DNA of 64,000 nucleotides from Patiria pectinifera. Its lineage: Eukaryota > Echinodermata > Asteroidea > Valvatida > Asterinidae. The position numbers and the translations under genes were made by a program. The DNA is taken from NCBI GenBank assembly GCA_029964075.1, contig CM057138.1, positions 12,642,932 through 12,706,931 of the forward strand. The letters run 5' to 3'. Positions 14,904-53,208 of the stretch are shown here, piece by piece (positions within the stretch are counted from its first letter, which is position 1; each line of letters opens with the position of its first letter). The notes beneath the pieces are model-generated. The model saw only the letters and a program-made list of their open reading frames with translations, did no database searches and was not told where the DNA came from.

Positions 14904-15631
14904 CTATTCTTTCCTCCATGGTTGGACATCAGACACGTTTCGGTAGACCTTCACCGTTTTTGTATCGGCCACAGCCAATTTCTGCCCGTCCGCAACGATT
15001 GTGATTCCCATTGGTTGGTACAGCTCCTGCACGATGCAGCTGAGAAACTGGCCGCGTGCGCTGTAGTGGTGAATGTGGCCCGTTCCTTTTTCTTCGCCGT
15101 GCACAGCCAGGTAGATGCCCGAGCTGTCGCAGCAGACTCCCGTGCACGTTGTTTGTTCCTCTGGGATTCCCCGGATGGCTGGTTGAATGCTGAATTCTGC
15201 AGTACCGTCGTCTTTAACAACTGTCGCCTTTCGATAATCGCTCACTACAAATCTGTTATTGGCATTACCAACAGCCACAAAATATGGCGTTACATCAAGT
15301 TTTATTGTTCGCTGTAAAACCACATGAGTGTGCATGTACCAGTAATGTTCGGTTAACACATTTCTCAACACATCACCTATCACGATAATACGATTGGACT
15401 TGACTGCTACTGAACTCGGCTTTGCATTTTGAACAAAGTAGGTTGACAGGCCAGTCGCGATAAATTTACCACACTTGTTATCATCGTGGGTTTTGAAATG
15501 TTCGAATGTGTAGAAGCCACTTGTCGCCCACGTACCAGAGGCCGAGGACTGATGTTGCAAAGTCCAGACATATTGGTGCGGGCAGCATGGAACTATCAGG
15601 TCATTACCAAATACTCCAATTCCGCTTGGAG
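14904..15631 (-). CDS. TRIM-NHL-like protein, gene 1, exon 2 (C-terminal NHL region)
   Basis: This exon encodes about 241 residues that look like a set of NHL repeats forming a beta-propeller. Repeat-like phrases include PSSVAVKSNRIIVIGD, FVAVGNANNRFVVSDYRK, GVCCDSSGIYLAVHG and GITIVADGQKLAVADTKT. The exon starts at 15631 after a C-rich tract ending CCCCCACAG and enters in phase 1, matching the phase-1 donor of exon 1 at 16288. Joining the exons restores a serine codon at the border. The stop (TAG) is at 14904-14906 after QPWRKE. The NHL propeller in this family usually binds protein or RNA targets for the ligase. The matching exon of gene 2 is damaged, so this copy is the better guide to the ancestral sequence. 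Confidence 0.88.
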
Positions 15632-15891
15632 CTGTGGGGGAGGGGAGGGGGATAAAGAAATCAAACATTAACATGCAGTGCGCATAGCAACAAAAGATAT
15701 GCGTGAAGTTAGAAATTTCTAACCAGGGCAATATTAGACTTAATACCCAAGCGATAGGGAAAAACAAAGTTAAACCACATTATTTTGAAACTTTACTCAA
15801 ATATGCCTACTACACTCTTTTAAAAACATCTGGGTAAGATTGTCCCGGAATCAAGGGTTTTATTTGGCTCAACCCTTTCCTGGCTCAACAT

Positions 15892-16150
15892 GACAATTTT
15901 CCAAGTCATTTTGACTCAAAAAAGTGTCATTTTGACTCACGGAAAGCGTCGTTTTGACGGAGGAAAATGTCAGTTCAACGGGGATAGGCCTATTTGTCAT
16001 TTTTACCCAGAGAAATGTCATTGTGATCCAGAAAAGTGTCATGTTGACACAGAAAATGTCATTTTTACCAAGGAAAGTGTGAATTTTGATCTGGAAAAAG
16101 TGTCATAACTGAGAACCGGAGAAAGTTTTATGTTTGACCTGGAAAAGGGT
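15892..16150. repeat. Degenerate ~21-bp minisatellite in TRIM-NHL intron
   Basis: About ten diverged copies of a ~21-bp unit resembling AAGTGTCATTTTGACTCAGAA run through this part of the 656-bp intron (15632-16287). Gene 2's intron does not show it, so it arose or was lost after the duplication. Confidence 0.7.
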
Positions 16151-16287
16151 TTAGCTAAAAAGAACCCGAATTAAGGTCAATCTTACACATGTAATAAACG
16201 AAAGTGGGGTAAGAGGGCTGATTATGAAAATTAAGCAATGTTTAGGGGCCATATATCAAAATTAATGCGCATATTTCAGTTACTCAC

Positions 16288-17404
16288 AGTATGTTTTGGA
16301 TGAAAATATCCCCTCCATTAAGCGTTGCTTTTTGCAGTACCCTGTACTCGTGTAGATTCCCACCATTCCATTTTGAGAGGAGCCATTTACCACTGCAAAT
16401 ACGTCAGGCTGAAATTCGCCCATAGAGGCAACGTCACAAGCCGATTGGAAGTCGCCAAACTCGGAACATTTCTCCCATGTTCTTAGCATCACCGTGCCGA
16501 TGCTTACGCCCGCATCCTTTACACCTGAAATCGTCCCTTTGAACGTGATGTTCGGCAAGCGAAGGTCAACTTTGGGGAATACCTTCCATTGTCGCAAGTC
16601 TTCCCTGACCGCTGGGTAGAAAGAGAGAAAGTCATCTTCTGCCGCAACATCGACTGTTTTCTCGACTGTTTTCTTTGCTGTTTCTAGCGAGTGTTGTGCT
16701 TTCTGCAACAACTCCTTCACTGTTTTCTCATGGTGATCATAACTTTCGATGTATTTCTTTTCAACCTTTTTTATTTCGTTCAATAATTGTTCTTCCCGTC
16801 TTGTTATAACTGATTGGTTCTGGCAAGCCCTATTTTGCACCTCTTGCGTTGTCTGTTTTATCCCACTCGCAAACTCAAATTTAGCTTCAGATGCAGTCGA
16901 CAGGGCTTGCTGGCATTCATCGATATTTTTGTCCAGTGGTGAGAATAAGCCCTTCAGTAACTGCCTGCGCTCAAAAGATGCAGTTTCTTTGCCAATACAC
17001 CGATGTTGCGCATGGTCAGAGTCGGCACACTTCTGGCAAAGCAACTTTTCGCATGTTTCACAAAATAATAGTTTAACCATCCCTTTGTGCTTGCCACATC
17101 TGCTTAAATTTGTTGTCTTTTTCATTCCCTGTTGCGAGATATCCTCCAGCATGTTAGTCAAGTTGAAGTTCGTTTTCAGGCCCTGCACACCGGTCTCTGG
17201 AAGCGGTGTCTCTTGGCGACACATTGGGCAGTGGATCTTTCGAGCGCCTGCATACCTGCCTTCGTGGTATGTTTCAAGACAACTCTCACAGAAGCTGTGT
17301 TGGCAGTCAAGGGTTTTGGGTTGGTTGTAAATGTCTTGACAGATGCCGCACTCAAGATGATTTTTGATGAGTTTAAAATGATCAAATGATGTACCGGTGG
17401 CCAT
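16288..17404 (-). CDS. TRIM-NHL-like E3 ubiquitin ligase, gene 1, exon 1 (RING, B-box, coiled coil)
   Basis: The chosen start is ATG at 17404 (MATGTSF); it is shared with gene 2, whereas the frame upstream is not conserved. Residues 19-62 form a RING: C19, C22, C34, H36, C39, C42, C59, C62. Residues 103-134 form a canonical B-box 2: C103, H106, C115, C118, C123, C126, H131, H134. A long charged helical region (about 150-280) is the expected coiled coil. The exon ends at 16288 on a GTGAGT donor, phase 1. With exon 2 the protein is 614 residues, in the usual TRIM-NHL range. Such proteins act as ubiquitin ligases; expanded TRIM sets in marine deuterostomes are often linked to innate immunity (inference). 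Upstream of the ATG a pyrimidine-rich tract ending in AG suggests a 5' UTR intron. Confidence 0.9.
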
Positions 17405-17911
17405 TTCTTTATCTGGTTTGAAAATGAAACAAACAAAATGACACAAATGCAATTCAATAAATTTCCCCACCAACTGTAATGGCTTGTTATTCACGTAACG
17501 GGGAAAATTGGTAACAGAGCCTGAAAGTTCACCCTTAGTGACCTGCTTCAAGAACCCGTGACTATAGGAAAATTAACTTGCAAAATATTCAAAAAGAGTA
17601 ATTACATGTAATTTTCGTTAATTGATTTCTCCAGAATATAAACCCCAAAAAAGGGCCTTGGAAGAACAGTCACTGTGAAATCAATTTATAGAAACTGATG
17701 AAATAGAAATGTCGTGCCAAAAATTAACCTCACTCGTCCGGAAATCTAAAATGCATGCTGGCTGCGCAACTTACGGATGTTAACCCCTAAATTAGTACGC
17801 ATATTATGAGAATTTCTGAACTAGTGTTACACAATTAAATCTAGAACCCATCGGTTTTAGGTAGCTTAGACTATTTGCGTAACATGAGCACACCCCCCCC
17901 CAAAAAAAAAA

Positions 17912-18106
17912 CACACCTCACATGGACGATTGGACCAAGGCGTTAGTCTAGATCCAAATGATTTGCAAATTAATAGTAGATCGTTGTTTGCGCTGTATTT
18001 TAAGATGCACTGCTGCAAATTAGCGATCAGTAGTCAGCGCGCGGTGAGAGTATGCAGCCGAATATACCGTACGAACGGATAATGACGAACGCCTTGACCA
18101 AGGCTA
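17912..18106. mobile_element. Fragment of Mutator-like family 2
   Basis: This matches the right part of the element at 62367-63073: CCTCACATGGACGATTG at the left and CGCCTTGACCAAGGCTA at the right end. The left terminal repeat is missing. It lies directly beside the MULE MITE at 18128. Confidence 0.65.
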
Positions 18107-18127
18107 GTGTGCAAGCGACTATTCCAT

Positions 18128-18651
18128 CAACCTCGTCCCCAGTGCTTACTTTATTTCCAACCGCGTTTCCAATAGTAAACCCTGGATAGGAAACTTTCTT
18201 CCTGTATCCTAATTGGATACCGCAATTGGCTAGTAATGGATTTTTATCGTGTACTTGGTGCTATAATATATTATATTCACAACGTGCAGTACGTGTTTTC
18301 GCGATCATTTGTCCACGCCTTCTCGAAAATACTAATTTCCTTTCCAATTTGCTCATATTAATATGAAATATGATACTGCATGTTGTCTTGATAAGATCGT
18401 AACAGTTTGATTTCAAAAATCGTGTTTTCGTAACTCACGCGCCGTGCTCGCGCTGCTACGAATTGACTCTGTTTTTACCCCAGACACCGCATACAAAAAC
18501 AAACGCTAATGTGTAACGCATATCCAGGCACCAGACTGTTCCTCATTTGCATACGTCTGCAAAAATCTTGCACATGCAAATGATCCAATACCAGGGTGAG
18601 AGAGCAGGTAGTGGTGGGCGCGTACTGCTCGACACCCTGGGGACGAGGTTG
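18128..18651. mobile_element. Mutator-like MITE, family 1, copy 2 (524 bp)
   Basis: Same family as 11469-11981 but inverted. Ends CAACCTCGTCCCCAG and CTGGGGACGAGGTTG, with a perfect 9-bp duplication CTATTCCAT (18119-18127 and 18652-18660). It sits in the 5' flank of TRIM-NHL gene 1 and is absent from the matching site of gene 2. Confidence 0.85.
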
Positions 18652-18805
18652 CTATTCCATATATCCTAGGGTGGTTACGGTTAGCAATCCCCCATTGTGC
18701 CAAAACAGATAGGGACAGGGCAACGCATTTGTCAATGTGCGAGCCTCACGATGGTCGCGGATAGGAAGTTGAGCCGCATAACCTTCTACTTTCAGGCTGC
18801 ATAAA

Positions 18806-18925
18806 AATGCCACGGAAACGACGGAGCCTATGTCGATTAAATGAGAAAAAAACATTGCTCACAGTGAAGGCAAGAGTCACGTACCAAATACCGTGTTTTC
18901 CGCCTGATGGTATCGTAGCGTACGC
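18806..18925. other. Conserved 5' flank of TRIM-NHL gene 1
   Basis: This matches 37840-37905 plus 38245-38290 upstream of gene 2 (shared phrases CTATGTCGATT, TACCAAATA, CAGATGGT/CTGATGGT). The gap in gene 2 is filled by the element at 37915-38244. It may be leftover duplication or a promoter/5' UTR remnant; the sequence does not decide. Confidence 0.5.
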
Positions 18926-19261
18926 CTATGCCAGGTTCGTGTTTGTTTTATCGGCCAAATGCAATCAGAAAACAAACACTCAGGTGGGACCTGCATGGAC
19001 GCTTTGGAACAACCATATCGATGGCCTATCTTTTTCGGGCAATATTCGTTGTTTTGTCGCTGGATTTATATCAAGTTATGTCCGCAGACTCCAAACTTTT
19101 GGAGAATGTAGCCACTCTATCCATGTCAATGTTAAGTATGAGCCTCCAAGACCAAGTACTGGATAATAATCTCATCTTTATTTGCATGCGGGTTGTCGCT
19201 TGATTTCAAACCAAAGAAAAACAATAGCCAAAGCCTGCGGATGTTCCAAAGCGTTCTTTCA

Positions 19262-19405
19262 GCACTACATGATTTGCATATTGTAGCCTAGCCGCGTGAG
19301 GTCGCTGTTCGCGCCTCGCACAGCACGTATACATGATGAGTGCATTGTTCGCGGCCAACCATCTATCATCGGAATCTTTCGTCGAACGCCTTGACCAAAG
19401 CTAAG
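19262..19405. mobile_element. Diverged fragment of Mutator-like family 2
   Basis: It shares GCCGCGTGAGGTCGCTGTTCGCG with the element at 62367-63073 and ends CGCCTTGACCAAAGCTA, like that family's right terminus. No left end or target duplication found. Confidence 0.55.
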
Positions 19406-22400
19406 CCTTTTCATTTTTTGGTGGGTTGACCATTGTTTTTTTCGAGAAATGTTCACCCCCAAAAACATCTTGAAAAATGATCCCTCCACAACATGGCAAA
19501 GTAGTACCACTTTCGAGTCCAATTGCATCCAAAATGCTCAGAATTGGAAGCCCCAAGTCCGAGCCAGAGGTTCATTGCCATATCTCCTCAATTACCCAGT
19601 TTTATAGCTCTCAGAACAAACTCTTTAATATAGAATATTTTGAGGGGTATAACTGGATTTAGGCCTGTTTACCGGTGTGCACCCCGAAGCCACTTGCTAC
19701 GCGCCGAGTTGATCTTCACTCCAGTCGCTTCACGGCTTCACCGCTTAAGCCACGATATGCGAAAGGCTATAGGCCAAAACGTTCCCGGATATCTGGAGAG
19801 AAAAAACCCAAGAAACCCACTCATAAAGCAGTTTATTTATAAAGCCTGTTTCCGGAGCTGCAGCACACTAGATTTCACGGTCAAGACTGAAGAAGCTCCG
19901 AGACCGGCGGTGATCCAGCGTTGCTCCGGCGGAGTCCTACAGGAGCGTTCGTTATCGTAAAAACACCTTCGAAGCTGTTTAAAAAAGTATTGCCGCTCAC
20001 ACACTAAATTGCGACTGTTTGACAATATACTCGTTGAATTCTAGTACAAAGATTACACATCCACCGGGTCGACCGGTCCTCGACGTCATAATACATGTAT
20101 ACATACCTGACCAGGCGGATGAGAATCAGTCCTGATAAGTGCTGAGCATTGTACATTTTAAAATATTGTAAGTACTCAAACCCCACTTCTATGCAGTGTT
20201 GTGGGTGTGTGGGTGTGTGTGTGTGGGGGGGGGGGGGGGTGGGGGGGGGTGTGTGTGTGGTAGCTCCATCTTACACTTAAGTTCGGATCATGTACTCGGA
20301 CAAAACACAAATTAAACTAAAGATAGAAACCATGTAGTACTAAGGATCTCACATGAATCAGTAAGATATAATTGGATTTCAAAAGATCGAGTTACAATTC
20401 CAAAACAAGCAGTTTATTTTTTGATTAAATAAATATAAAATTATTTAGCTAAAGTTCCAAACTTATTTCTTTTGAATAATGCAATGTCAAGTATTCCCCG
20501 AGCGATCAGGAGGTGGATCCTGTTGTCCTTCTGATGGTGGTCGCGCGTAGAAGATCGGCACACGCACGTGAATGTCACGTAAAACCAAGCGTGACGTACA
20601 CAAGGCTAATAAAACAACACCAAATAACTCGCGCTAACAATGTGAAATGCTCACAAAGACTCACCAACAGCATCTACATCATGTCATCCATCATGTCAAA
20701 CGTGTGGCGAAAGGCCGGCTAATTGAAGGCGAATCACGTCGCAGTAACATGCATGGCGACCCACGGCCATAGCAAGAGACCGACAACAGTTTGTGCACGT
20801 ATAGGTTGGGCACCAAGCAATAAGATCCGAAGCCTTCTAAAACGGGTCTTAATAATCCAACACCCAGTTCGAAAACTTACATGAAGTACAATACCTAATT
20901 CAACATTTTTAACAGTTATCAAAAAGTATTACCTAAATAAAAGAACTAATGGAACAGTATACACATACTTGAAGTTTTAAATAGGTACACCCTGCACTCT
21001 GTCTTGGTCACATGCAAATGAGGGCATATGCTATTTTTTGTTATGGTGAAAATCCCGTACCCGTACCGCTGCAATATAAAATGCAATTTTGCACTTCATA
21101 TTGTAGGTCAGTCGTTGATAAGGAAAGTTAATCGGATTACGTAGCTGAATGCCACAGACAGAGTAGTGCCATTGCAACCCCCCCCCCCCCTAAAATAAGA
21201 CCATCACTTTGTTAACTTTCTGTTGGTGGAAAAATTTGCTCAGTACGTTGTTAAATTAAAATAGTAGAAGAAGTTCTTCACTTAAAGTCAGTGAAAAAAA
21301 AAACGTCGTTATTGATGCAGAAACGTCAATACATGTACTGGTCACTGGTAAAGCTTACCTACAAGACTTGGAAAACCGTTCGAAAAGGTCCTCAAATCTA
21401 TTGACTTATCTCAAAATCTAGGAATCCTAACAAGTTTTTATATCACGAGACACGAGTGGTTGAAGACTTATAACATCTAAGAATATTCCGAATTTTAGCT
21501 TCATCTGTTGTTGCAAACGCTTGAATTACACTTTGTGCTATAACCAAAATGTCGACTCGGATTTGTGCCAAGCAAAACAACACGTTACGTTACTAGGATG
21601 ATTTGGCCGATTCGGCCGCAACGATGACGTAGCGCGTTATTAGCATAGTATTTTTTAGTCAAATTGAGGCCCGTCCAAAGGTTAAAGGAGGGGCTCACAC
21701 AAACTAATTGTTACTGCACATTCGAGGCGTGAAAAGATTGACAGATATTGCAAACAATTTTAATACAGCTTTGGAAAATGGACGTACCAAACATTATTTT
21801 TCCCAATTTGAATTAAAAAACACTGAACATATCAAAACGATTTTAAGCACATAGTTGGATCATTATAAGGGAAACAAACTCCGAAACGGCTTGAAGATAC
21901 GGTCTTCAAAACGGGAGAAATTGATGTGAGGGGAGGGGAGGGGGGAAGCACCCCCTCCCCCCCCCCCTCACACCCTCGCCCATGCCAAAAATCCACATTT
22001 CAGGATGGCTGTCACTCCCTGGCATTAACGTGTTACATCCCATGCATATTGTACACATTTCTCAACGTGCTCCACACACAAAATGATTTCTCATCGGGGA
22101 AAATCCCTCAGCATGCAATACGTACACAGCAGCGGTGTCAAAGCAAAATGGAACCCCATAACTTTTTCGAGCGATTTCGTATGCTTGCACAGCCGCGGTT
22201 TCCTATAATATCGGAACTCCCACATTACGTAAGTGGCCAAATCGGCCTTAGCAACCGGAAGACTGCCAATGGCAACGGCACTCACGAGATCAAAATGCGT
22301 GCATATGTTTTTCACTAATTTCTTAAAATCCACTGAAAATTGTCCTCATGCAATAAATGTACATTGGAACGGCATAAACATGTGTCATGCACCCATAGCT

Positions 22401-22546
22401 GGGTGCATTTGTTCCTCTCTTGTGAATACATACTAATGCTCAACTTTTAAAGAAAAAAATAATCATTCTCAGTTTTTGTTTTTCTCAAGCTGGTTTTATG
22501 GCAGTATAAGGCAATGTATTACAAATTACATGTACCACTGGTTGCA
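19406..22546. other. Non-coding stretch with simple repeats
   Basis: No gene recognised. A (GT)n/(G)n run lies at about 20201-20260 and a G-rich/C-rich palindrome at about 21925-21972. The rest is unassigned. Confidence 0.4.
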
Positions 22547-23272
22547 GCCCGATAGTCCGAATTAAGGTTCGATAGTCCGATCAGTCCGAAGGCGGAGGGT
22601 CATTAGTCCGAAGGTATGTTAGTCCGAAGGTTCGATAATCCGAAGGTTCGATAATCCGAAGGTTCGACAGTCCTAAGGTTCGATAGTCAGAAGGGCCTAT
22701 TAGTCCGAAAAGAGAATGTTTAATCCGAAGGTTCGATAGTCCGAACCGACGAAAGGGTTTGATAGTCCGAATTGACAATAAGGTTCGATATTCAGAATAG
22801 ACGGTATGGTTCGATAGTCCGAATGCACGGTAGGATTCGATAGTCCGAATTCACAATAAGGTTCGATAGTTCGAATAGAGAATACAGTTCGATAGTTCGA
22901 ATGCAGGGCAACGGATCGTCAGTCTGACACTTCGGACTATCGGACCTTTTTGTTGATTCGGACTATCTGACCTTATTGCCGATTCGGACTATTGGACCTT
23001 TTAGTCTTTTCGGACTATAGAATGTTAGCTAATTCTTGTCAATTCGGAAAAATGACAACTGATCCTTCGGACTAATTAACCTTATTTTAATTTGGACTAC
23101 CGAACCTTCGGACAAATGAACCTTCGGACTAAATGAACCTTCAGATTAATGAACCTTAGGACTTTTGCATCAGATGTTTGGATTAACGAACTTTACTACA
23201 TTTTCGGACTAACGAGCCCCCTCTTATGGAAATTGTGTGCATTCGGACTAAAGAGCCTTCGGACTATCGGGC
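22547..23272. mobile_element. Foldback-type element built of inverted TCCGA minisatellite
   Basis: The left half is a run of about 15-25-bp units with core GGTTCGATAGTCCGAA. The right half is the same motif inverted (TTCGGACTATCGAACCTT). The outer ends are GCCCGATAGTCCGA and TCGGACTATCGGGC. Terminal inverted repeats made of short tandem repeats are the mark of foldback elements, such as the TU elements described in sea urchin. No coding capacity and no clear target duplication. Confidence 0.75.
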
Positions 23273-23338
23273 GGTCCCCGTACCGCTACCATTGCAATTA
23301 TTCACCCTACAGCCGTGTTACATTATATCGTCACGGAC

Positions 23339-23971
23339 ACCACGAAGTAACACTCTACCGTGTTAAACCATATTTTTTTTTCGATTTTCAGTATTTTTGG
23401 ATTTTTAAACATTATTCATTAAGGCCTACCATTGCATGAAGTTTCAAAGCTTCAAGAGCTTTACTTTAATAATTACGCTAAGTATCCATGGCAACTTTTG
23501 CGCAAAAGTGACAATTTTCGTTTTCACAAAGTAACACTCAAGTTCCATTTACCATTGCAATGCATGGCGCGCACTCTGCTCATAAGTGAGCAAAAACGCT
23601 TTCACCAAGTAACACACTTCTTGTAATAAGTTGTATGAGCGCGCGCGCGCTGACCTGAAGTTGCACTTTCCTCGTGTTGTACACATTGAAGAGTGTTACT
23701 TCGTGAAAACGAAAATTTACAGTTTCGCAGCTTTTTCGGTTTCACGGACTAACACTCATCTTTTTCTCTTATTTCTTGTTTATTTAATACACAAACGGGT
23801 GAAACAGCAGATTTAATAAATTCAATTGATCAAATGTCCACAATGAGAGACCCAACTGAAAATACTCTGTCGTTTTGACGCAAAGTGTTTGTTTTTGAAG
23901 GCGTTCAACTTTAGTTGCCGTTTTCTCCAATTGCTAGTTTTTACTGGTATGTAGATGGTGTTACTTCGTGG
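23339..23971. mobile_element. Candidate TIR element with repeated GAAGTAACAC motif
   Basis: The outer ends are CCACGAAGTAACACTC and GGTGTTACTTCGTGG. The motif CACGAAGTAACAC or a close variant occurs six times (about 23341, 23525, 23603, 23691, 23741, 23959), in both orientations. Such subterminal arrays are often transposase binding sites. No target duplication is clear, so this is tentative. Confidence 0.5.
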
Positions 23972-24179
23972 GTTTGTTGACGATATGCATGCAGGAGTTT
24001 ACCTTTTACTTCACTTTCCAAGTTCATCCGCCTATATCCATCAGGTTGGTCCATAGGCCTATATCCAGGAACTTCTGTAAAAACCACCAATTCAACGACT
24101 TTATTGCCAAAACAAGCTGATTTACCCGATCATAGATCGCGTAGGGCGTATTGTGTTGGGGATGAAAATGTGGGGAGTT

Positions 24180-25316
24180 AAATGTAAATGGGGGATATAG
24201 TTGAGGAGACATGCAGTTGTATAAAAGCAATTTCTGTGGTGTGATCCTAGGCAATTTCTGACCACTAAAACCAATTTCAGGAAAAGATCATCTTTAAAAG
24301 TTTTGAGTTTGGAGTAATTGAATCAGGTACGTGTATTCTGAGCAATAGAATCATTATAGTAGGCTACAATTTTTATTCGGGGAAGAAAAAGTGTGGGGGG
24401 GGGGACCAAACAATGTCCCCTGCTTTAAAATGGAGGGGGGGGGGGTTCCCCCTGTCCCCCGTCGACTTACGCACATGATAATTGTGCACCATGGCAACTG
24501 TCTGTAAATGTTCCCGTTTGTGTGTTAAAATGGCATTTTGTGAGAAAGTTGCATTTGTGGAAAAACGTAATGAAAATGTTACCGTAGTACACAGGCGAAG
24601 GCTGATTGTACAGTTTTGACAATAAATCATAATGCATTAAAACGTAAAGGTGTCATTTGAAATGGAAATGTTGAAGGTTACCATACAATTACAAACGGTC
24701 TGAATCATGGAGGAAGGTCATAATTAAGTTTCAGTATTGGACTCTTCAACAAACGTAAACTTGATCCTTCTTACAATTTGCTAGACCGTTTGCAAGGAAA
24801 AAGTCGATTCAACTTTTATTCAAGTTGGTTCAATCATCTATATAACAGCAAAATGTGGTATTAAATGTAAATGAGGGATGTAGTTGAGGAGACATGCAGT
24901 TATAAAAGCAATTTCTGTGGTGGGATCTGAGGCAATTTCTGACCACTAAAACCAATTTGAGCAAAAGATCATCTTTTAAAGTTTCGAGTTTGGAGTATTT
25001 AATCAGCTACATGTATTCTGAGCAATTGAATCATTATTGTAGGCTACAATTTTTATTCGGGGAAGAAAAAGTGGGCCACTTTTTCTTCCCCGAATAATGC
25101 AATAAAACGTGGTGTCGTTTGAAATGAAAATGTTGAGTGTTACCATAAAATTACAAACGGTCTGAATCATGGAGGAATTATAAGGTCATAATTAAGTTTC
25201 AGTATTGGACTCTTCAACAAACGGAAACTTGAACTTCTTACAATTTGCGAGACTGTCTGCGAGGAAAAAGTCGATACAACTTTTATTGAACTTGGTTCAA
25301 CCATCTATATAACAGC
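24180..25316. repeat. Local tandem duplication (~450 bp shared)
   Basis: 24180-24395 matches 24866-25075, and 24633-24853 matches 25096-25316, both direct. The first copy holds ~237 bp (24396-24632) that the second lacks, including G-runs. At the middle of the second copy (about 25063-25095) AAAAAGTGGGCCACTTTTT forms a perfect small palindrome where the missing block would be. Confidence 0.8.
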
Positions 25317-26292
25317 AAGTTTTACTCGGCCTCCGAGAAATGTTTGCTCCTGAAAGGATCCGAGACCGCGGTCTCCCGCGACGCCAAAATGGCTCCAAGT
25401 CCGTGGAAAAATGTGGATTGTGTCTTCCGGGGGGTTAGGCACTTTTTCGTCGATTGTTTTTCTTGACTGCGTTTAAGATCGCGACATTTGAAGCAATGCA
25501 TCGATCCTTCGATGATCCCAAACAGGCCCCCAAAATTATAACGCGACACTGAATATTATACGTGGCGGGCAGCGAAGTCACAACGCTCGGCCTTGGTGGT
25601 GGAAGCATGGAGCTGTAAACACATTATGGAAGCAACAGCACTCTATCACGCGACGTCACATGCTTGTGCAATACCGAGAACCGTAGACCCAACCTCGTTT
25701 CCAGGGTGTGGAGCAGGCTGCAGTACGCGTTGCCATCGACGGTTTACGCATAGCCGGGAAGTACCACGCAGTGTAGACTTTCGATTGGTCAGACCGCGCA
25801 AGGCATACTAATGTGTAGTCCTTCTGAGTATTCGTTGCACTCGGCGCAGGGGCGGCAAGCAAAGCAAAGGAAAGATTGGAACACTTGGTGGCCACGCACC
25901 ATGGAAAAAAAATATTTTGCCAAGGTCACCCCATACTAACGTTTGGTGAACGCTTTTGCAGTACGGCCGAGTAGAACACGTAAACGAAACCCCTACGTTG
26001 ACCTCGCTGACCTCGCACAGTCTAGACACGCAGAAAAGCCAGCACAGGGGGCGGCCAGGCAGTCAACGTGAAAGCGCACACGACGGCAAATTCCTGCGAA
26101 AAAATCCTCACGAAAAATCGACGAAACGGATCGCCGGTCCGTACGGGAAAATCAGGACGACCCGAAGTGTCCGACCCGGCGGAAGACACCCTCCGCATTT
26201 TTCCACGGACGTGGAGCGATTTTGGCGCCGCGTGAGCCTGCGGTCTCGGATCCTTTCATGAGCAAACATCGTCTCGCAGGCCGAGTAAACTT
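25317..26292. mobile_element. TIR element, ~976 bp
   Basis: The left end AAGTTTTACTCGGCCTCCGAG and beyond matches the inverse of the right end (GGCCGAGTAAACTT). Shared inner phrases are ATGTTTGCTC, AAAGGATCCGAGACCGC and TTTTTCCACGGAC. The arms are about 150 bp with indels. No transposase frame, no certain target duplication. Confidence 0.65.
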
Positions 26293-34589: not shown

Positions 34590-34696
34590 CTGTGGGAAAA
34601 ATAAAGGAATCAAAAACAAACATGTATAGTAGCTATTCTGGTTCCCAGAACAAAAGATTGTGACTATTCCTGATGAATCTTAGGTCAGGTAGCCGT

Positions 34697-35059: not shown

Positions 35060-35440
35060 ATTGTCGTCGACAATCGGATATAATTATGTACTGTTTTGAA
35101 TTTTGACGAACGTTACCAGGATTCGTCATTATTTGAAAATTTGATCGGAACATTAAAAGCTATAGGTGATTAAGTGAATTCGGAAACGAAGTCGATCTTT
35201 GAAAAAGGGAAGTCAATATTTTTAGCCACTGAGGCTGCCTGACCTACAATTTAGACGTGAGCGTCGGGAATAATTGTCAGCTCTGGGAACCAGACCAAAC
35301 ATGTATAGTGGCATAGCGAGAAAAAAATTGTGTGAGGGGGTTAACCAATCCCTCCCCCCCCCCCCCGAATTTTCAATTCGTCGGTGTAATATGAAATGTT
35401 GACCGCTAAGAAATCTTGCCTCTTTAACTTTGTATGTACC

Positions 35441-36001
35441 TTCGCTCGTACCCCTGCCCTGCAAACAGGGCGCTGGGACACACTGATGAGCTTCACATAA
35501 TCTTGTGAAGGAAGTGGGGTTGCATTCTGGGTAATTTATCATGACCTATGTATAAAGCATCTGGCCGCAGCTGTTACTTTGCGACCGCAGTTAGCCAAAT
35601 GCTATCCGAAAACTTTCTCTTAGAAATGTACACATTCCATACCGGATGTGATTTCTTTTTCATTGCGGACCACGTGGACACATTTTGAGCGTCGCATAAT
35701 ATGCAATTTGACCTTTCGTGAATTCAAAACGGAGCCTGAGCAAGTGATGGAAATTGAAAACTTACAAAACAGATCTGCTTCACATATTATCCTACATTAT
35801 CACGCTTTTCAACGAAAACAATATTTATGATTGGAATAAAAGAGTGATGACTTAGTCTTAACGGCCGTTTGAAACCTTTCCGGGTCGTGGTCGTGATGAC
35901 TTGCAGGTCACAGGTTACGTAAAATCTATCCAATCAAAAAGTAAATTTATCAGCCTATATCCCAGCGTCCTGTTTGTAGGGCGGGAGTGGGTACGAGCGA
36001 A
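35441..36001. mobile_element. TIR element family 3, copy 1 (561 bp)
   Basis: The ends are TTCGCTCGTACCCCTGCCCT and the inverse GGGTACGAGCGAA, with the arm extending through AAACAGGGCGCTGGGA. The flanks GTATGTACC and GTATATATC could be a diverged 9-bp duplication. A second copy in the opposite orientation lies at 46578-47008. Long arms and 9-10 bp duplications suggest a Mutator-like MITE. Located in the intron of TRIM-NHL gene 2. Confidence 0.7.
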
Positions 36002-36285
36002 GTATATATCCTGACCCTCACACTTGCGCAGTACAACAAATTAAAATAGTACGTATTTCAGAGAGTCTAAATTTCACACTACACCGGACTTGACTCCATC
36101 AAAACCGACGCTGAACATATTTGTTTATCTTGAGATTTCTTCAGATATCTCAGACCTGGCGCGGTAGCCCAGGATTACGCGTAGCATTTATATTTCTAAC
36201 CAGGGCTAAGACTGAATACCAAAAGCGAAAGGGAAAGCAATTCAAAATAAAACGCGTTATTTTGAAAGCTTTCAAAATTTAAATA

Positions 36286-36407
36286 CACTGCAAAAACTTC
36301 AGTGTTAAATTTACACCATTGGTATCTATATAGGACCATCTGGTGTTAAGGTGTTGTCCTATATAGATACCGAATGGTGTTAAATTAACACTACAGTTTT
36401 TGCAGTG
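36286..36407. mobile_element. Palindromic MITE, 122 bp
   Basis: Nearly the whole element is an inverted repeat: CACTGCAAAAACTTCAGTGT at the left and its inverse ending TTTTTGCAGTG at the right, with GTATCTATATAGGAC inside each arm. TA flanks both ends (36284-36285 and 36408-36409), typical of Tc1/mariner or ISL2EU-type insertion. Confidence 0.8.
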
Positions 36408-36528
36408 TATACATGAACACGTATTCACATATTATGACCAAAAAGGGGTTGTGGGGCTTTGATTAAAATTTAATAGGGTTGTTAATGACTGTAGTAAAGA
36501 CTGGTGCAGCTCGCTTTCAGTTACTTAC

Positions 36529-37660
36529 CGCAAATTCTGAATGAATTAATTTTCGAGATTTTACAGCCTTGACTGTTGTGGTACCCTGTACATCTGTAGA
36601 TTCCCACCGATCCGTTTTGGGGACAGCGGTTTATCACTGCAAATTCGTCAGGCTGAGAAGTACGTACAGAGGCAACATCACAAGCCGATTGAAAATCGCC
36701 AAACTCGGAGAATTTTTCCCATGTGTGTAGCATCACCGTGCCGATGCTTGTGCCCGCATCTTTCACACCTGAAATCGACCCTTTGAACGTTATGTCTGGA
36801 AAGCTAAGGTCGACAGCGGGAAGTTGATGAGAACTCAGCTTCCGCAAGTCTTTCCTGACCACCGGCGGGTAGAGAGAGAGAAAGTCACCATCTGACGCGA
36901 CATCCACGGTGTCCTTTGCCGTCTCCAGCGACCGTTGTGCTTTCTGCAACAACTCCCTCACTGTTTTCTCATGGTGATCAAAGGTATTGCTGTATTTCTT
37001 TTCAATCTTTTTGATCTGGGTCATTAGTTGCTCCTCCTGTTTCGATACAACTGCTCGGATCTGGCGAACCCTTTCTTGCACCTTTTGTGTTGTCTGCCTT
37101 ATCCTACTCGTAAACTCGTCTTTAGCTCCAGATGTAGCCGACAGGGCTTGCTGACATTCGTCGATCTTTTCCTCCAGAGATGGGAATAAGTCCTTCAGTG
37201 ACTGTCTTTGTTCCAAAGATGCAGTTTCTTTGTCAATATACCCATGGTGTCTGTGGTTACATTTGGCACATTTTCGGCAAATTAACTCTTCACAAAACTC
37301 ACAGTATAATTGTTTAACCATCCCATCGTGCTGGCCACATCTTCTTGGATCTTCCAGATAATTCAGTGTCGACTTATCCTTTTCTTGTCGGGAGATATCA
37401 TCCAGCATATTAGTCAAGTTGAAGTTCGTTTTCAGGCCCTGCACACCGGTCTCTGGAAGTGGTGTCTCTTGTCGACACAATGGACAGTATATCTTACTTG
37501 CGCCTGCATACCTGCCCTCGTGGTATGTCTCAAGGCAAGTCTTGCAGAAGCTGTGTTGACAGTCCAGGGATTTGGGTTGGTTGTAAGTGTCCTGACAGAT
37601 GCTGCATTCAAGATGATTTTTGATGAACTTATAGTGATCAAATGATGTACCGGTGGCCAT
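36529..37660 (-). CDS. TRIM-NHL-like gene 2, exon 1 (RING, B-box, coiled coil)
   Basis: Paralogue of 16288-17404, starting at the same MATGTSFDH. The RING cysteines and histidine match those of gene 1 (C19, C22, C34, H36, C39, C42, C59, C62). The linker to the B-box is a few residues longer. The B-box 2 ligands are complete (C-x2-H-x8-C-x2-C-x4-C-x2-C-x4-H-x2-H). A charged helical region follows as the coiled coil. The exon is open throughout (377 codons plus one base) and ends at 36529 on a GTAAGT donor. Ahead of the ATG, CCCTTTCAG looks like a 3' splice site, so a 5' UTR intron is likely. The exon itself shows no decay, in contrast to the downstream exon; a RING/B-box/coiled-coil protein with a shortened propeller could still be made. 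Confidence 0.88.
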
Positions 37661-37914
37661 TTCTTTATTTGGTTCTGAAAGGGAACGATTCACAAATTCA
37701 ATTCAAGTATTACCCCCCCCCCCACACACACACACACAAACTAGACTTTACATTACATAACATTACAGTACACTTGTGGCTTATTGGGATTCCATTAACG
37801 GCACATAAAGAGGGACATTGATGGTAAAAACCCGGAAACAATTGAGACTATGTCGATTCAATAAGAAAAGTGAAGGAAGCTAGGAGTTATATACCAAATA
37901 GGCCTACCCAGGGT

Positions 37915-38244
37915 CGTCGGGTGCCCGGCAGAAGGGCATATGAGCGTTCTGACGCAAAAATCATGTTCATGAAATTTGCATTGAAAGGCTTCAATGTTCC
38001 CCCCGCGTGTATTATGAATTCAATGTTCCCCTACAAGTAATATAAATCGTACGTTTTTGAAACTTGTCACACGGATGAATCATAAGTTTTGGAACAACTG
38101 GTAGTAATTTCTGACAAAAATGTTTAAATTTCATTAAAATAGAGGCAGTTTGCTGCATATGCCCTTTTGCTGGGAACATTTTGGTCATTACGCGCTATTG
38201 CATAAGGGCATATGCACATATGCCCTTCTGCCGGGCACACGACG
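37915..38244. mobile_element. TIR element, 330 bp
   Basis: The ends are CGTCGGGTGCCCGGCAGAAG and CTTCTGCCGGGCACACGACG, followed inward by GGCATATG and CATATGCC. It splits the conserved 5' flank of gene 2 relative to gene 1, dating it after the duplication. No target duplication is certain. Confidence 0.7.
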
Positions 38245-38500
38245 CCATGTGAAATTATTCCACCAGATGGTTACTCTTCGCCTTATATTTTTTTGTGGCT
38301 CAAATAGAGGGCTTCCTCTGCCGTGAGCAATACAGTACATGGTCATACTCTGAATGTGGGGTAAAATTTATTTTGAGGAAATCGAAATCGCGACTACTTT
38401 CCTCTTGATATTCACCAGGCAAGATACCTGGTAAATAAGGAGGGACCATCAAAATATCAAGATTGTGTACATAACCTGTGAGCCAGAGAAAAGTACTGCA

Positions 38501-38663
38501 AGTGCAAACTTTTTGAGACAAACTCACTGCCAATTTTTCCAAGCTATTATATAGTATAGGTTTTCCCGGCCAATTTCCTGAAAAGTGCAAACTTTTTGAG
38601 ACAAACTCACTGCCAATTTTTCCAAGCAATTATATGGTATAGGTTTCCCCGGCCAATTTCCAA
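38501..38663. repeat. Tandem duplication of ~82 bp
   Basis: Two adjacent copies beginning AGTGCAAACTTTTTGAGACA and ending CCCGGCCAATTTCC/CCCCGGCCAATTTCC, with few differences. A TIR element follows at once. Confidence 0.85.
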
Positions 38664-39169
38664 AAATGTTCATTCACTTCTGAAAATTGGTCATTCATTT
38701 TCGTCTGAATGTGCGAGTTTTAGTGCACACGCGTTTCATTTTTCGCTACCAGAGTATTCGATTCCATTTTAATTCAATCAATTAAGTGATTGAGCAGCAA
38801 CTATCGTTCATGTTCATTCATATTCGTTTACAAGATTCCTTTTTCGCTTTTAAGAGGGCGATTCAAACAGTGACCATTCTATTTCACTTTAAGTTTAATC
38901 TTCTGTGATCTAATCTGCTATTTTTAATAAGAAAAATGTACTTTTAATTGCACATTCACGAAATTGTACTCCAGAACTCTGTGCGAAAAGGTAGTTTGCG
39001 TAAATGAATGCACACAGGTAACGTAATTGGCCGTCTGTTTTTCAAAACCGAATGCACGGACAATGAAAACGATTGAACTTTCGTTGAATTAAAATGGGAT
39101 TAAAGACGTGCATTCACGTTCAGACGAAAACGAATGACCGGATTTTTTTTTAGAAGTGAATGAACATTT
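38664..39169. mobile_element. TIR element, ~506 bp
   Basis: The left end AAATGTTCATTCACTTCTGA and the phrase GGTCATTCATTTTCGTCTGAA are matched inverted at the right (TTCAGACGAAAACGAATGACC, then AGAAGTGAATGAACATTT). The arms are about 55 bp. No coding capacity; superfamily unknown. Confidence 0.7.
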
Positions 39170-40655
39170 CGGGAAAGTGGACGGGAAAACCTATATTAAA
39201 CGGGTAAGTATCTTCCATGGTGAATATCAAGGGATCCATTTTAAATAAACAAATTAACTTTTCCCAACACATAGCCTATGGCCACTGTGTGGCTCCATAT
39301 AGCAAAGAACGGAAGACCATTACTTCGAGCCACATTTATGGGGCTAGCCTGTTCTACATAGAACTAAACCCCAGAGCTAGAAAAGAGGCCCAGGGATTTC
39401 AGGGGATGACCATTCTTGTCACGTCGAAGTCTTGGATTGGGAACTCCTTTGGTCCTTAGGCTAGGTCTATATAGCTCCAGGGTCGGTACGTGTAGTGCAT
39501 AGAGCCACGCTACGGAACGTCCGGCCTAGGCTATAGGCCTATATCCGAGCTGCCCAATTCGACCCCGCTCCCTTACCAGCCATGCAATCGGAGTCGACCC
39601 ATAGTGACGTCATTTCAATCAAAACGTGGACTAATTTGCTGATGTTGATTGGTCAATTTGGCTGCCAGGTTTTGTAATACACAAACGGCTCACCAATATA
39701 CACTGGAGCAAAAATGAGAAACATGATTTTTTTTTTCTGGAGGAACTTGTAATATTCCATTGAGCTATCGAAGCTCGATGATTATTCCATCATATGTCTT
39801 CATGATATGGAGAGCCTCGCAGCTGCCTTTAGGTTTCTAACACGCACACGGCGGTATTACACAGGCCTTCTAGCGAAGATACTGCATGTCGGCCGCGTCC
39901 TGAACGGAGATACCCATTTTTGCCACGCTGCTGTTGTACGTTCGGAGCTGGTTTAACTAACACAAGCCATGTTCACGTGTTGTCTCTATATCCACGTACA
40001 TAGTAACTTACTTAATTCAGACGATCCAGTACAACTTCAGTAACAACCACCACAGTATTGCCACTGTAGCCACAGATTGAAGAAAGCGGTATCAAGTTAA
40101 CAAAATGACTGTTCAGTCCTGATCACACAACTACCCGTGCTATCTAGCTACCTAGAGGCCCAATAGGAAAGGTTAAAGTTCATGAACTCCAGCAAGCTTA
40201 ATTCACGTCACAAACACGTACACGCGACACAACAGATGTATTCACACAGGTTGTGTCCTCATTGTGCAGACTTCTGTGATGTCTGCACGCTAACTATTGA
40301 AAATACGTACAAACAAACCCCAAGCTTTGTTTAGTTGAACGTTTATGAAAATGTTACTCTCCAAACAGCACATGTAGGCCTATGTGAAGTCATACATGTT
40401 GCACTGGGTGTATACCCACGCGTCTAATTTAAAAACAGACTCATCACAAGTTTCATTTCATTTATTTGAAATGGCAGACAAATTATCTGTGGGTCCCAAC
40501 TCGACAGACAACATAATTTATGGGCCCAATGAGGTCAGGTAGCCCAATTGAGAGTTGACTGTGAGACTAGACACTGATGTTTCAAGGGCACTGGTGTTTC
40601 ATACAGTAAAAATCGGTTAAATAAATTCGAATTTTATTCAGTAACAAAATGTCAA
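39170..40655. other. Non-coding stretch in copy B
   Basis: No gene. 40060-40373 matches copy A (26315-26735) in pieces; the rest is unassigned. Confidence 0.4.
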
Positions 40656-42350
40656 CACCGGAGGCGGAACCGGGGGGGGGGCAGAGGGGGCAGTTGCCTC
40701 CCCACTTTTGAATAGGTAGCTATTTTTCCCCCACCCCTCCCCCCACTTTTTGCCAGGAGCGATTTTTAAAAAAACAGGTTAATTAAAATGATGCAAGAGG
40801 TAAAAAAAAGATTTTTGAACACGTGTCTCATTTATAGGGCCCTATTAAGAGTATTATGTACTACAATGAATCTTTTGCTCAGAAAATATTGGTTAAAGTG
40901 GTCAGAAATTGCCTCAGATCGCACCACAGAGCATCTAGAATCCAAAAAAAATTCGGGGCCCTTTAAAGCGGGTCCCGAACCCCACGCCTCAAGGGCTTCG
41001 CGCTTCACGCTCGCATCAGTTCCGATCAAGGTATGTTCCCCCACTTTTTAAAAGCGAATGACACCCCAGGTTGGGGTTGAAATTTGACAATAGGCCTTAT
41101 ACCTAAGTGAGTATGGCGACACAAAATTAGAAAAATGATTAGAAAAATAGGGATATACCGTAATTTTCGGAATATAAGCCGCGCGGTGTATAAGCCGCAG
41201 CACGCAAAAATCTGCAAATTAAAATCTGAAGTCGGCGTATATAAGCCGCCTCCAAAAATTCTAGTCAAAAAGCTCTGAACCAGTTCCAGTTACACTACAG
41301 AAGCTATAAAAAGGGCCACACAATTTATATCAAATCATTTTCAATCAATACTCTTACAAACAAATATGGAAATTGATGATGAGAAATAAACACCGGGAAG
41401 TGCTGCCGGCTGCCCCGTCCCGGTCCCCGGCCTTTACAAGTTAGTGCATGGCAGGCCAGGCAGCCTAGCTGCGCCGCGCCGGTGAATGACAACATTTTCC
41501 CGCAGTACGTGAGAGAGTAGGCAATTAACCCACCGTGTGTTGTCTGACTGGAGCGCTACAAATCTTGCTTTTGTGGCAACAGATGCTGACTTGTTTTGTC
41601 TTAAGAATAAACAGGTCCGTTTTTATCTCAAAACTTTTCATATTTTTGTTAATACTAGCGAATAGTAACGTAAAAAATTCAAGTTTCGATCGTAACTTTC
41701 TTCAAAAATAGTCAAAAACAAAGACCCTTTAGCGCCGTAGGAAACGATGCTGACATTTTTATGGACGAATCCATTAATTTTGTAAGGGGTGATTTAGTCC
41801 CTGTTTTGAGTTTTACATCGTTTCTTGAATTCGTTTCAAGAAAAAAATATATACTGTGACGTTAAACAACTTATTTTCTAATACAGAAATGTTTCGAACA
41901 CCATAAAAAAAGCATTAGTCGTCTTTTTTCGTGTTTTTTAAATGCAGAAATATTGGTAAATATTGTTCCCAAGAAAGTACACCCCTTCATTACCACAAAT
42001 GGTGTGGTCCGCTGGGGGAAAGCATGCAGCTAGCTGCACACCACCCATGGTATCACGTTTTACCGCTCGATACCTTGATTTCGGTTTGTTAATGACTTTT
42101 TAATTGATAATTAATTTCAGCAACACCTCTCTTCTTATACCAGTACATTAACTACACATGTGAATCTTATTTTTATTCTTCAGGGCTCAGCGTATAAGCC
42201 GCCCTGTGTATAAGCCGCAGTAAACATACGTAGGTCACACGTTTCGGACCAACTTCACACTTTTACCATTTGCTTTGATTTTGCTCCGGAAACAGTAACT
42301 GGACCTTCCCCCCCCCCCCCCACACTTTTAAAAGTGTTCCGCCGCCGATG
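40656..42350. mobile_element. hAT-like element, 1695 bp
   Basis: The ends are CACCGGAGGCGGAAC and GTTCCGCCGCCGATG (inverted, 13 of 15). A perfect 8-bp duplication AATGTCAA flanks it (40648-40655 and 42351-42358). The left part shares GTCAGAAATTGCCTCAGATC and neighbouring bases with 5599-5660 in the hAT-like element at 5280, so the two are related. No transposase frame. Removing it restores collinearity with copy A (26800-26830). Confidence 0.8.
41157..42233. mobile_element. Nested element with TATAAGCCGC repeats
   Basis: The left side reads CCGTAATTTTCGGAATATAAG followed by TATAAGCCGC copies near 41173, 41190 and 41240. The right side has TATAAGCCGC copies at about 42193 and 42210 in the same orientation, not inverted. 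It lies inside the hAT-like element. The phrase is common in repeats of marine animals; the class is not decided here. Confidence 0.45.
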
Positions 42351-42830
42351 AATGTCAACAGAATGTGAAATGCATGATCTGCTATCCTTTTAGGGAAAGC
42401 TGTGAGCTGAAAGTGGCGTGAAGGGAGTATTAATAATAATTTCCAAGAAATCTCGTTTTATTACCAAGAGACGTCAATGTAGAACTAGTGAAAAGCTAAA
42501 AGAACCTGGATAATACCTACCTACCTACGTACTACCTTGGTCGATCTTCCGATCGAACCAAGGAAACGAATCACCATATGCATCTCTTTCTAGCATCACT
42601 GATCTCCGATGGTGATTTCAGCCCAGTGTCCCTTTGAAGAAGATCAAAGATGGTTGTGGCCTGTTCCCTGGTTCAGATGACCACGTGTTAGTTGCCATAG
42701 TATCAACTTCGAGGCTACCTCTTCAGGGTATGCCTAGCCTACACACAGTGGCCGCCTAGGCGTAATCTCCGCTCGGCGATTTTGTGTGAGACTTTAGAAT
42801 AATAATGAGGAAAAGAGTGGGGCCGTATCG

Positions 42831-43178
42831 TAAGTTCGACGTCTCATAAGTCCGACGCCTCATAAGTACGAAATTTCGGAATTATGAGGCGTCTGATTTA
42901 TGAGGCATTGGACTAAGGGATTCGGCCTCATAGCTCCGACGCCTCAGAGGCTCAGAAGTCCGTCGATCGTCTCATAATTCCGACAACAAACAAACAACGA
43001 TTCGGACTTGTGAGGCGTCGGACTTATGAGGCGTCGGGCTTATGAGGCGTCGGACTTATGAGGCGTCGGACTTATGAAGCGTCAGACCTATGGGGCGTCG
43101 GACCTGTGAGGCGTCGGACTTATGGGCCTTTATTTGGTTGGGATGAACTTTTGTCGGACTTATGAGGCGTCGAACTTA
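42831..43178. mobile_element. Second foldback-type element, ~348 bp
   Basis: The left part has units with core CATAAGTCCGACGCCT. The right part has the inverse AGGCGTCGGACTTATG repeated about eight times. The outer ends TAAGTTCGACG and CGTCGAACTTA are perfect inverses. The architecture is the same as at 22547-23272, but the unit differs; both share a TCCGA/TCGGA core. Confidence 0.7.
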
Positions 43179-43445
43179 ATGCGCGGATTTTAAAGCATTT
43201 TCGTAAGGTATGAAAGAACTTTGAATCTGTGTCTCCTATTGGGACAATGAATACACAGTATGATGTTCAAACCGGTGAGTTCCTCACTGCACTGGATTTC
43301 TTGGAAACAAGTTAAAACCTAACTAAAAGAAAATGTTGAAGTAACTTACGATTTTACATACTGTCCTTTGCACAATCCTACTTTAATTGTAACACGGAAT
43401 TTCGTTGCTTTATATTTTATTTGCCAGCTGTTCGGCTGTCGACAT

Positions 43446-43646
43446 CAGTGGCGTAGCCAGGAATGTTTCAGTATGTGTGTGTGTGTGTGCGGGGGTGGGT
43501 GGCCTGAAACATTTGATGGGGGCGTCATGTAGATTAATGATAATTTTTGTAAAAACTCAAAATCTCATGGGGGGGGGGGGGGGGGCGACAAGGTTTCATG
43601 GGGGGAGGGCTGTCACCCCCCACGCCACCCCGTGGCTACACCACTG
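43446..43646. mobile_element. hAT-like MITE, 201 bp
   Basis: The ends are CAGTGGCGTAGCCAGG and CGTGGCTACACCACTG, inverted. A perfect 8-bp duplication GTCGACAT flanks it (43438-43445 and 43647-43654). The interior has a (GT)n run and long G runs. Confidence 0.9.
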
Positions 43647-44337
43647 GTCGACATGATAAAACAAACTTCAAGAGTTTGCTTCCCCATGATACACGGTATA
43701 ACCGCAAGCCTGTACTATCAGTAAAATATAAGGTCATCATCAGAATGCGTTGAACACTACTATACATTTAACATTACAATGATCATGATTCGGTTTCCCG
43801 TCCTAACTTAATTTTATGGATTGCTTTAACCATCTTGTGTGTGTGGAAATTTCCTCACACTAGGTCAAAAACATAACACAAACAAACGAACACGGGAGGT
43901 CTCTTCTGAATTTCCGTTTAAACTTTTATTTCCCCTTTTCAATTAATTTATGATTACATAAAATAACACCATACACATTTACTAACAATTAATACAACAT
44001 GGCTGGCATTGGCAATTAATATACTGGAAATGTACAAATGGAGAACCTGGTAACCTTTTTGGTGGCAGTTAAAATACATAAATAATGCATAAATATATAA
44101 TTGGTGCCTGACTAACGTGAATACTCAAACCACGCATTTTCCTGAAACTATTGGTGAAATTAAGATAGAAAACGAAAACTAAAACAAGCACGTCGTGCTA
44201 TGTTTTTGCAGGAGTTATAATGGAAGAACAAACAAACCCATTTCCTGGAACATCAACAAACGTAAGAATAAGATAAGAACAAACTTGACAAAATTTGAGT
44301 TTGAAGAGAGTTTTCACAGCTGCTTGCTTCTGTAAAA

Positions 44338-44483
44338 GACCTAAGACGTAATGACGTCACACTTTGTTTACATGTGCGCTTTCCTATGTAGTAGACGGAC
44401 CCCACTTTATCTGGCGTCCCGACTTCGCTCCCATAGGAAAGCGCATATGTAAACAAAGCCATTACGTCATTACGTCTCAGGTC
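44338..44483. repeat. Near-perfect palindrome, ~146 bp
   Basis: Arms of about 52 bp (GACCTAAGACGTAATGACGT onward on the left, its inverse on the right) flank a ~40-bp centre. The arms contain TGACGTCA and GTTTACAT. Probably a MITE inserted in copy B; copy A reads through near 28345 without it. Confidence 0.75.
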
Positions 44484-45520
44484 CATTCACTGTGATTTTA
44501 TACCTAAAAGCCAAAAATCATCACAGTGCTTGTTATGATCTCGAAATAAGGTTACAAGTCAAAATACAATTTTCAAACAATAAATAAAGCGCGTCCCTGA
44601 AACCAACTTTTAAACCGATTTTATCAGTGAGAGCACAATCATGTTAATACTGTGGAGTATTATGTACATGTACGGCACCGCTACTAAACCTGACACTTTT
44701 GTTTGTTTTGGCAAATTCATTTAAATCCCAACTCAGTTTCCGAACGAAACACCTTCGAGACGCCAATAAAATATCGCTATACCTCATCGAATACAGAAAT
44801 TTAAACCTGATAAAATAAAAATGTTCTTGAACAAGACAGAGCTTTCCAATGCACAAACGTAAATTCATACATTTTATGGATAATTTGGCGGATTATAATT
44901 CAAGTAAATAATTCACGTTGGAAATGACTTAAAGTCTATGATACAATCCTTTATGGCTGATGCCCTTTGACACTGTAAATGTTTTTTATTCTATTCTTGG
45001 GCAACAGAAGGCGATGTACATAACGACATCAGTTGAGGTCACAGAATGATGTGAATCAGAGGTGATTATTATAAGTGCTTAAGTGTACTTATTGTGCTAC
45101 AGCTCAAAAATACAGTTTTTGCAATAGTAATTTGAACTTTACCCTCCTACTGTTTAAGCAGTCACAGACAGTCAAAACCTCCTTCCACTTGACCTGCCAT
45201 GCCCTTTACACAGGCTACAAACAGTCAGATCATATTTCAAGCAAGCACTCTACATCTGACAAGTCAAATACCAGTTCCGAAATTCATGGGGGAATGTACA
45301 ATTTCAAGTTCAGAACTTCTGCACCAAATACCTGTTTTACAAATTCACTTGTGAAACAAGTCTGTGTAACAAACCACCAGTATAAGCAAGATATGTACAT
45401 GTAACTGAATTCACACCTCTATTTGAAGTTTCTATTCTCTTAAGGTAATCACAATACATTGGAAATTGAATACATTTACTGACATGCAAGCATGCATCCT
45501 TGGAACGTGCAAGCCCCATG

Positions 45521-53045: not shown

Positions 53046-53208
53046 TTTAATTTATATTTAAGGGAGGAGAACGAGAACTAGCTAAGTGTCTTGCAATGAG
53101 TCAAAGGAAAACATAAATTATCATAAGTGGTACAACTGGAGTTGTGCTACTGGTGCCACCAAACTTTTTAATGGACATGATACTACGACACTGGTAACCA
53201 TGCCTGAC

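Follow-up and report, generated by a model that had tools for sequence, protein, structure and literature searches.

Two neighbouring genes of the TRIM-NHL family in the sea star Patiria pectinifera, with related DNA upstream of their start codons, raise the question of whether gene and upstream DNA record one and the same duplication, and whether the non-coding part can be used to date it. The pair lies in a stretch of 64,000 nucleotides, C10:12,642,932-12,706,931 (C10 being contig CM057138.1 of assembly GCA_029964075.1), which we call the window; positions without a prefix count from its first letter. The original prediction read the locus as a tandem segmental duplication of exons, intron and more than 10 kb of 5' flank, in which differing transposons offer a natural dated comparison. 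We mapped homology by self-comparison of the window and ran genome searches over 613.5 Mb in 1,020 contigs. A 21-base sequence of the echinoderm microRNA miR-2008 is found exactly once in this genome, as would suit an echinoderm, and a search of the assembly for COX1 gave no match. Judged from the sequence, a tandem unit of gene plus upstream DNA is present twice in the same orientation, with mobile elements that each copy has evidently acquired for itself since. Once a third unit of the same cluster is included, the relationships of the genes and those of the flanks are in clear conflict.

Structure of the two TRIM-NHL genes

Both genes lie on the minus strand, copy 1 at 14,904-17,404 and copy 2 at 33,919-37,660. 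The first coding exon of copy 1 (16,288-17,404, with the ATG at 17,404 and a GT donor after 16,288) encodes the RING finger, the B-box, a middle region and the start of the NHL part; the second (14,904-15,631, with an AG acceptor before 15,631 and the stop at 14,904) is open and encodes the rest of the NHL part, so that the product has 614 residues. Copy 2 has an open first exon (36,529-37,660, ATG at 37,660) and retains both splice sites, but its second exon (33,919-34,589) carries a one-base frameshift, which leads to a stop in frame at 34,072, and its last codons are broken at 33,918. In both copies an AG stands directly above the ATG, as judged by eye, which would permit an untranslated exon further upstream.

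In Pfam, the RING finger (PF00097) scores above the cut-off in both copies, the B-box reaches 29.3 bits in copy 1 and 23.0 bits in copy 2, slightly under the cut-off of 24.1, and the NHL repeat (PF01436) exceeds its cut-off of 20 in the second exon of each copy (24.3 and 29.3 bits), copy 1 having a single repeat above the cut-off. Among solved structures, the top matches of the RING/B-box part are human TRIM2 and TRIM3 (E 4.7e-21 and 8.1e-19), and the NHL domains of the same two proteins are the best matches of residues 487-603. By analogy with the family, the proteins are predicted to work as RING ubiquitin ligases whose NHL propeller would choose the targets. In a tree of 30 exon-1 proteins, made from the pair and 28 fetched loci out of 164 matches at E<=1e-10, copies 1 and 2 form one clade with a support of 100/100, with a warning from the program about long branches among these sequences.

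Homology between copies 1 and 2

The exons pair at 14,942-15,675 / 33,922-34,624 (75% identity) and 16,274-17,471 / 36,515-37,720 (77%), and one short intron block is paired as well (15,715-15,794 / 36,192-36,272). In the flank, seven blocks on the plus strand keep their order and orientation between 26,605-29,327 in copy 1 and 40,221-45,509 in copy 2, at 63-74% identity with gaps counted. The copy 1 blocks at 26,605-26,735, 26,822-26,946, 26,962-27,105, 27,383-27,607, 28,138-28,352, 28,485-28,836 and 29,124-29,327 have as partners, in this order, 40,221-40,371, 42,377-42,515, 43,198-43,355, 43,856-44,073, 44,075-44,328, 44,677-45,077 and 45,304-45,509. They lie 9.2-11.9 kb above the ATG in copy 1 and 2.6-7.8 kb above it in copy 2, and comprise 1,353 ungapped sites, 280 of which differ. 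The predicted collinearity of exons, intron and flank was thus recovered, with coordinates good to about 100 bases. Its extent was not: merely about 1.4 kb of the flank truly matches, and the long interval from 17,471 to 26,605 in copy 1 holds a lone in-order match of 37 bases (18,813-18,849). The usual definition of a segmental duplication asks for an identity of no less than 90% over a minimum of 1 kb, and both exons and flank blocks here are well below that identity, so the term does not apply in this sense. What is supported is an old tandem duplication of the gene and some upstream DNA.

Several controls bear on these matches. With copy 2 reversed, no match was obtained at E<=0.01. Filters on distance and location excluded 115 of 300 random pairs of stretches drawn from the window; among the remaining 185, no match was seen in 168, and between 1 and 4 in the other 17. 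Searched genome-wide, flank 28,136-29,400 matches itself and three stretches of the copy 2 flank and nothing else, and for flank 26,600-27,604 the matches are itself, one stretch in the copy 2 flank and three in the third unit, which lies on the same contig. Dispersed repeats as the source of the flank matches are thereby ruled out for these two segments, and the case that would have undone the original prediction, in which the exons alone match and the flank does so through repeats, fails where it could be tested. Dispersed repeats swamped three further flank searches; apart from one that overlaps a block end by 5 bases, these repeats do not touch the paired blocks.

The self-comparison detects no homology between the copies past 29,327 and 45,509, and below 14,942 about 20 bases carry on across the mobile element of copy 2, and no more. 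The copy 2 flank at 37,870-40,220 aligns to neither copy 1 nor the third unit apart from short weak matches. A hidden coding gene in the flank was considered and rejected: tblastx places 59 of its 105 matches there, of which 20 fall in a mobile element that both units carry; the remaining 39, all short and tied to exon matches, are scattered over all six frames, so that no coding frame is favoured. No Rfam family reaches the gathering threshold within the window.

We express ages as distances rather than years. Between copies 1 and 2, the Kimura two-parameter distance (K80) is 0.242 in the flank and 0.234 (bootstrap 0.15-0.33) at fourfold degenerate sites, of which 33 of 166 differ, and the synonymous distance (dS) by the Nei-Gojobori method (NG86) is 0.459 (0.37-0.55). 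The nonsynonymous distance (dN) varies from one part of the protein to another: the first 90 aligned codons have a value of about 0.05 and the remainder of exon 1 has 0.23-0.26, whereas exon 2 has 0.36 in its early part and 0.07 in its last.

A third unit in conflict with the pair

The third unit, C10:12,521,279-12,529,590, contains a TRIM-NHL gene on the same strand and has the layout of copies 1 and 2, gene and then flank; about 136 kb separate the start codons of this gene and of copy 1. At C10:12,523,700-12,523,972 a short element, flanked on either side by CTGGACTG, interrupts the RING exon of the third gene. Ten blocks of the copy 1 flank within 19,207-27,377 are collinear with C10:12,524,853-12,529,469; 217 of their 1,437 aligned sites differ (15%), which corresponds to a K80 of 0.169. 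Insertions of 0.7-2.2 kb in copy 1 sit within this otherwise continuous homology. Neither the introns nor the first 1.8 kb above the copy 1 ATG align to the third unit. The genes are far more distant: over the larger piece, copy 1 shares 113 of 313 residues with the third gene and differs from it at 31 of 44 fourfold sites, and copy 2 shares 114 of 310 residues and differs at 29 of 47 (K80 1.3), so that the third gene is at or close to saturation at its fourfold sites.

Among 64 other loci compared, two gave single weak matches to the third-unit flank, one of which overlaps a paired block, and none matched the paired blocks of copies 1 and 2. A fourth TRIM gene adjoins the third unit (approximately C10:12,515,470-12,516,740), and no copy of the flank was recognised there. 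When the copy 1 flank was aligned with that of the third unit as one continuous stretch, the middle blocks were missed, and the values taken along this alignment were discarded. At 22,550-23,194 copy 1 has a large imperfect palindrome of short tandem units, where the third unit has just about 100 bases.

In the best-aligned 158 columns of flank shared by all three units, 18 sites favour the pairing 1-2, 20 the pairing 1-3 and 19 the pairing 2-3, and the grouping of copies 1 and 2 seen in the genes is not visible. Because the third unit shares the flank at a K80 of only 0.169 while the genes are at or near saturation at fourfold sites, the flank is not a simple clock for the duplication, whether exchange or constraint lies behind the conflict. 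Of the predicted dated comparison, the order of events therefore survives, being readable from empty sites and from the identities of sister elements, and the dating by flank does not. A tandem duplication with later insertions remains from the original account, which claimed too much in extent and dating and lacks two pieces: the interruption of copy 2, and the third unit, which was out of its sight.

Possible exchange between units or constraint on the flank

The absence of any closer relation in flank between copies 1 and 2 than of either to the third unit, despite their close genes, leads us to favour exchange. Units of the TRIM cluster may have traded DNA through unequal crossing-over or gene conversion, with the result that the copy 1 gene would be nearest to the copy 2 gene and the copy 1 flank at least as near to that of the third unit, whose gene would then predate its flank. 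With modest confidence, we take the locus as a whole to be best explained by a tandem pair of gene plus flank, in which each copy gained its own elements and copy 2 was interrupted late, within a cluster whose units have been exchanging DNA.

A number of observations weigh against this explanation. The 158 three-way columns are a small sample, in the right part of which the alignment of the third unit is poor; further three-way stretches of 190 and 311 columns, in which one copy is not clearly homologous in places, count 39/45/21 and 81/78/14. The flank distances of copy 1 to copy 2 and of copy 1 to the third unit rest mostly on different columns, the NG86 dS of the pair exceeds its flank K80, and the clustering of sites is weak, 230 of 10,000 shuffles being as high. 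Between the blocks of copy 1 and the third unit, none of the four gaps tested aligns above the level of shuffled sequence, and of the four gaps between copies 1 and 2, one does so clearly and one weakly; islands of constraint would give such a pattern as well. A weak match lies on the other side of the gene (12,782-13,005, 69%), which would call for replacement of the gene body rather than a single crossover, and a donor for the gene of the third unit was not found.

The main rival is constraint, according to which TRIM units have conserved the upstream blocks as regulatory or untranslated sequence, so that these have outlasted synonymous saturation, copy 2 and the third unit each having lost a different part. 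We consider this possible, although on the unlikely side. The interspersion of the blocks with stretches that do not align, the persistence of the flank in three units in spite of the saturation or near-saturation of the third gene, and the AG above the ATG in copies 1 and 2, compatible with an untranslated upstream exon, all speak for it. Constraint alone predicts, however, that copies 1 and 2 should be closest in flank, and they are equidistant in the 158 three-way columns and, over separate columns, even farther apart than copy 1 is from the third unit. The insertions within the continuous homology of copy 1 and the lack of Rfam families in the window also argue against it. One could further speculate, more tentatively still, that the units of the TRIM cluster have in their upstream region a common control module, held alike by selection or by repeated copying for longer than synonymous sites endure, as the genes below it diverge or are swapped; if so, differing TRIM proteins would come under one old control region. 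Finally, the unequal age of gene and flank in the third unit would also be expected if the upstream DNA were a low-copy mobile or transposed piece that had landed independently beside each TRIM gene, and the genome-wide restriction to these units is established for 26,600-27,604 and 28,136-29,400, not for 19,207-24,115. Such independent landings are nevertheless very improbable, given that copy 1 shares ten collinear blocks with the third unit and seven with copy 2, in constant orientation to the gene, that the two restricted segments are confined to these units, and that the paired blocks are absent from the other loci compared.

Timing of the interruption of copy 2

The interruption of copy 2 appears to be a late event. 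Of the 77 residues aligned beyond the frameshift, the two copies have 66 in common (dN 0.07, dS 0.49), and three outgroups assign 1-2 changes in the distal NHL part to copy 2 and 1-4 to copy 1. That copy 2 has been dead ever since the duplication is unlikely: a rough Poisson reckoning, for the distal NHL part and the copy 2 branch alone, gives 20-40 expected changes at amino-acid sites, and 11 differing residues are observed in total. Since the distal NHL part is still conserved, the damage would be recent, or else the frameshift an error in the assembly. The latter, which is compatible with each of the explanations above and would leave the element in the last codons as the sole real lesion, we hold to be a lesser possibility. 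The conservation beyond the frameshift, the outgroup counts and the shift by just one base are all in keeping with such an error, but a recent genuine mutation explains the data equally well, and the TTAT-flanked element breaks the last codons independently of the frameshift.

Mobile elements in each copy

No paired block contains a recognised element, and in no case do both copies have one at an equivalent position, so the predicted difference in transposons holds for every element recognised. Identities to sister elements, taken from the matches listed only, bound the ages of the insertions loosely. In the copy 1 flank, the element at 18,128-18,651 has inverted ends and a 9-base target repeat, CTATTCCAT, and is related to 11,469-11,982 and 34,693-35,035; a 2.2-kb repeat at 24,112-26,312, absent from the third unit, has sisters at 93-99%, mostly 97-99%, among the matches listed; and the element at 27,608-28,137, with full-length sisters at 87-90% among those listed, corresponds to an empty site in copy 2 at 44,073/44,075.

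Copy 2 alone carries the element at 34,693-35,035 (90-92% identical to its two relatives in the window) and a repeat at 43,444-43,646, whose listed sisters are mostly at 77-83%. In its flank, the element at 40,656-42,351 has the 8-base target repeat AATGTCAA on both sides and most of its long sisters, among the matches listed, at 86-90%. Two older repeats occupy 42,522-43,178, where copy 1 has 16 bases; the matches listed include one sister of 42,522-42,797, at 81%, and sisters of 42,819-43,178 at 75-82%. A short palindromic element at 44,329-44,489, with listed sisters at 93-99%, is not found at the corresponding place in copy 1. The 1.8-kb element in the last codons (32,151-33,918) has TTAT on each side, end repeats of 471 bases that are 100% identical, and at least six full-length sisters at 97-99%. 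The ageing of a tandem TRIM pair can thus be read here, with empty sites showing which insertions postdate the duplication and one gene apparently interrupted late.

The element in the last codons is built as A-B-B-A, its ends flanking two middle units that are 97% identical, and its sisters in the genome are frequently arranged in tandem. The window contains three members of the inverted-end family with 9-base target repeats (11,469-11,982, 18,128-18,651 and 34,693-35,035), the third of them truncated.

Relation to known systems

The pair resembles TRIM-NHL ligases of the TRIM2/TRIM3 type in having RING, B-box and NHL in the same order, and differs from them as a local two-copy expansion in an invertebrate, with one NHL repeat over the Pfam cut-off in copy 1 and an interrupted copy 2. 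A 2008 survey of the TRIM family describes the vertebrate SPRY-type genes as fast-evolving and clustered, and an older group as present in invertebrates (PMC2533329). To this older group the pair belongs by its NHL part. Among the papers listed by literature searches, none concerned the present TRIM cluster.

The same strand, collinear exons and flank, unshared insertions, and one open and one broken copy are what is known from tandem duplications with copy-specific transposons and late loss; there is no difference in kind, except that the flank contradicts the gene once the third unit is added. The different unit relationships yielded by gene and flank resemble the concerted or mosaic evolution of clustered gene families, from which the locus differs in that an exchange tract is not delimited in the present units and constraint remains as a rival. 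In kind, the pair is ordinary cluster evolution, and the conflict between gene and flank is the part worth pursuing: it cautions against the use of non-coding identity to date such duplications, and hints at either exchange or shared control within an invertebrate TRIM expansion. The genome holds at least 164 exon-1 matches at E<=1e-10, most of those listed being on contig C22, where a large expansion of exon-1 relatives, some near-identical, lies at about 27-36 Mb.

Other features of the window

On the minus strand, 50,615-55,919 holds a gene with an open frame of 448 residues, and the neighbouring frame at 55,521-55,919 resembles a phosphotyrosine-binding domain, at a score under the Pfam cut-off. 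The first 4,944 bases form a long direct repeat, with shorter internal repeats, in which 1-599 matches 2,432-3,036 at 98% and 735-2,630 matches 3,044-4,944 at 93%.

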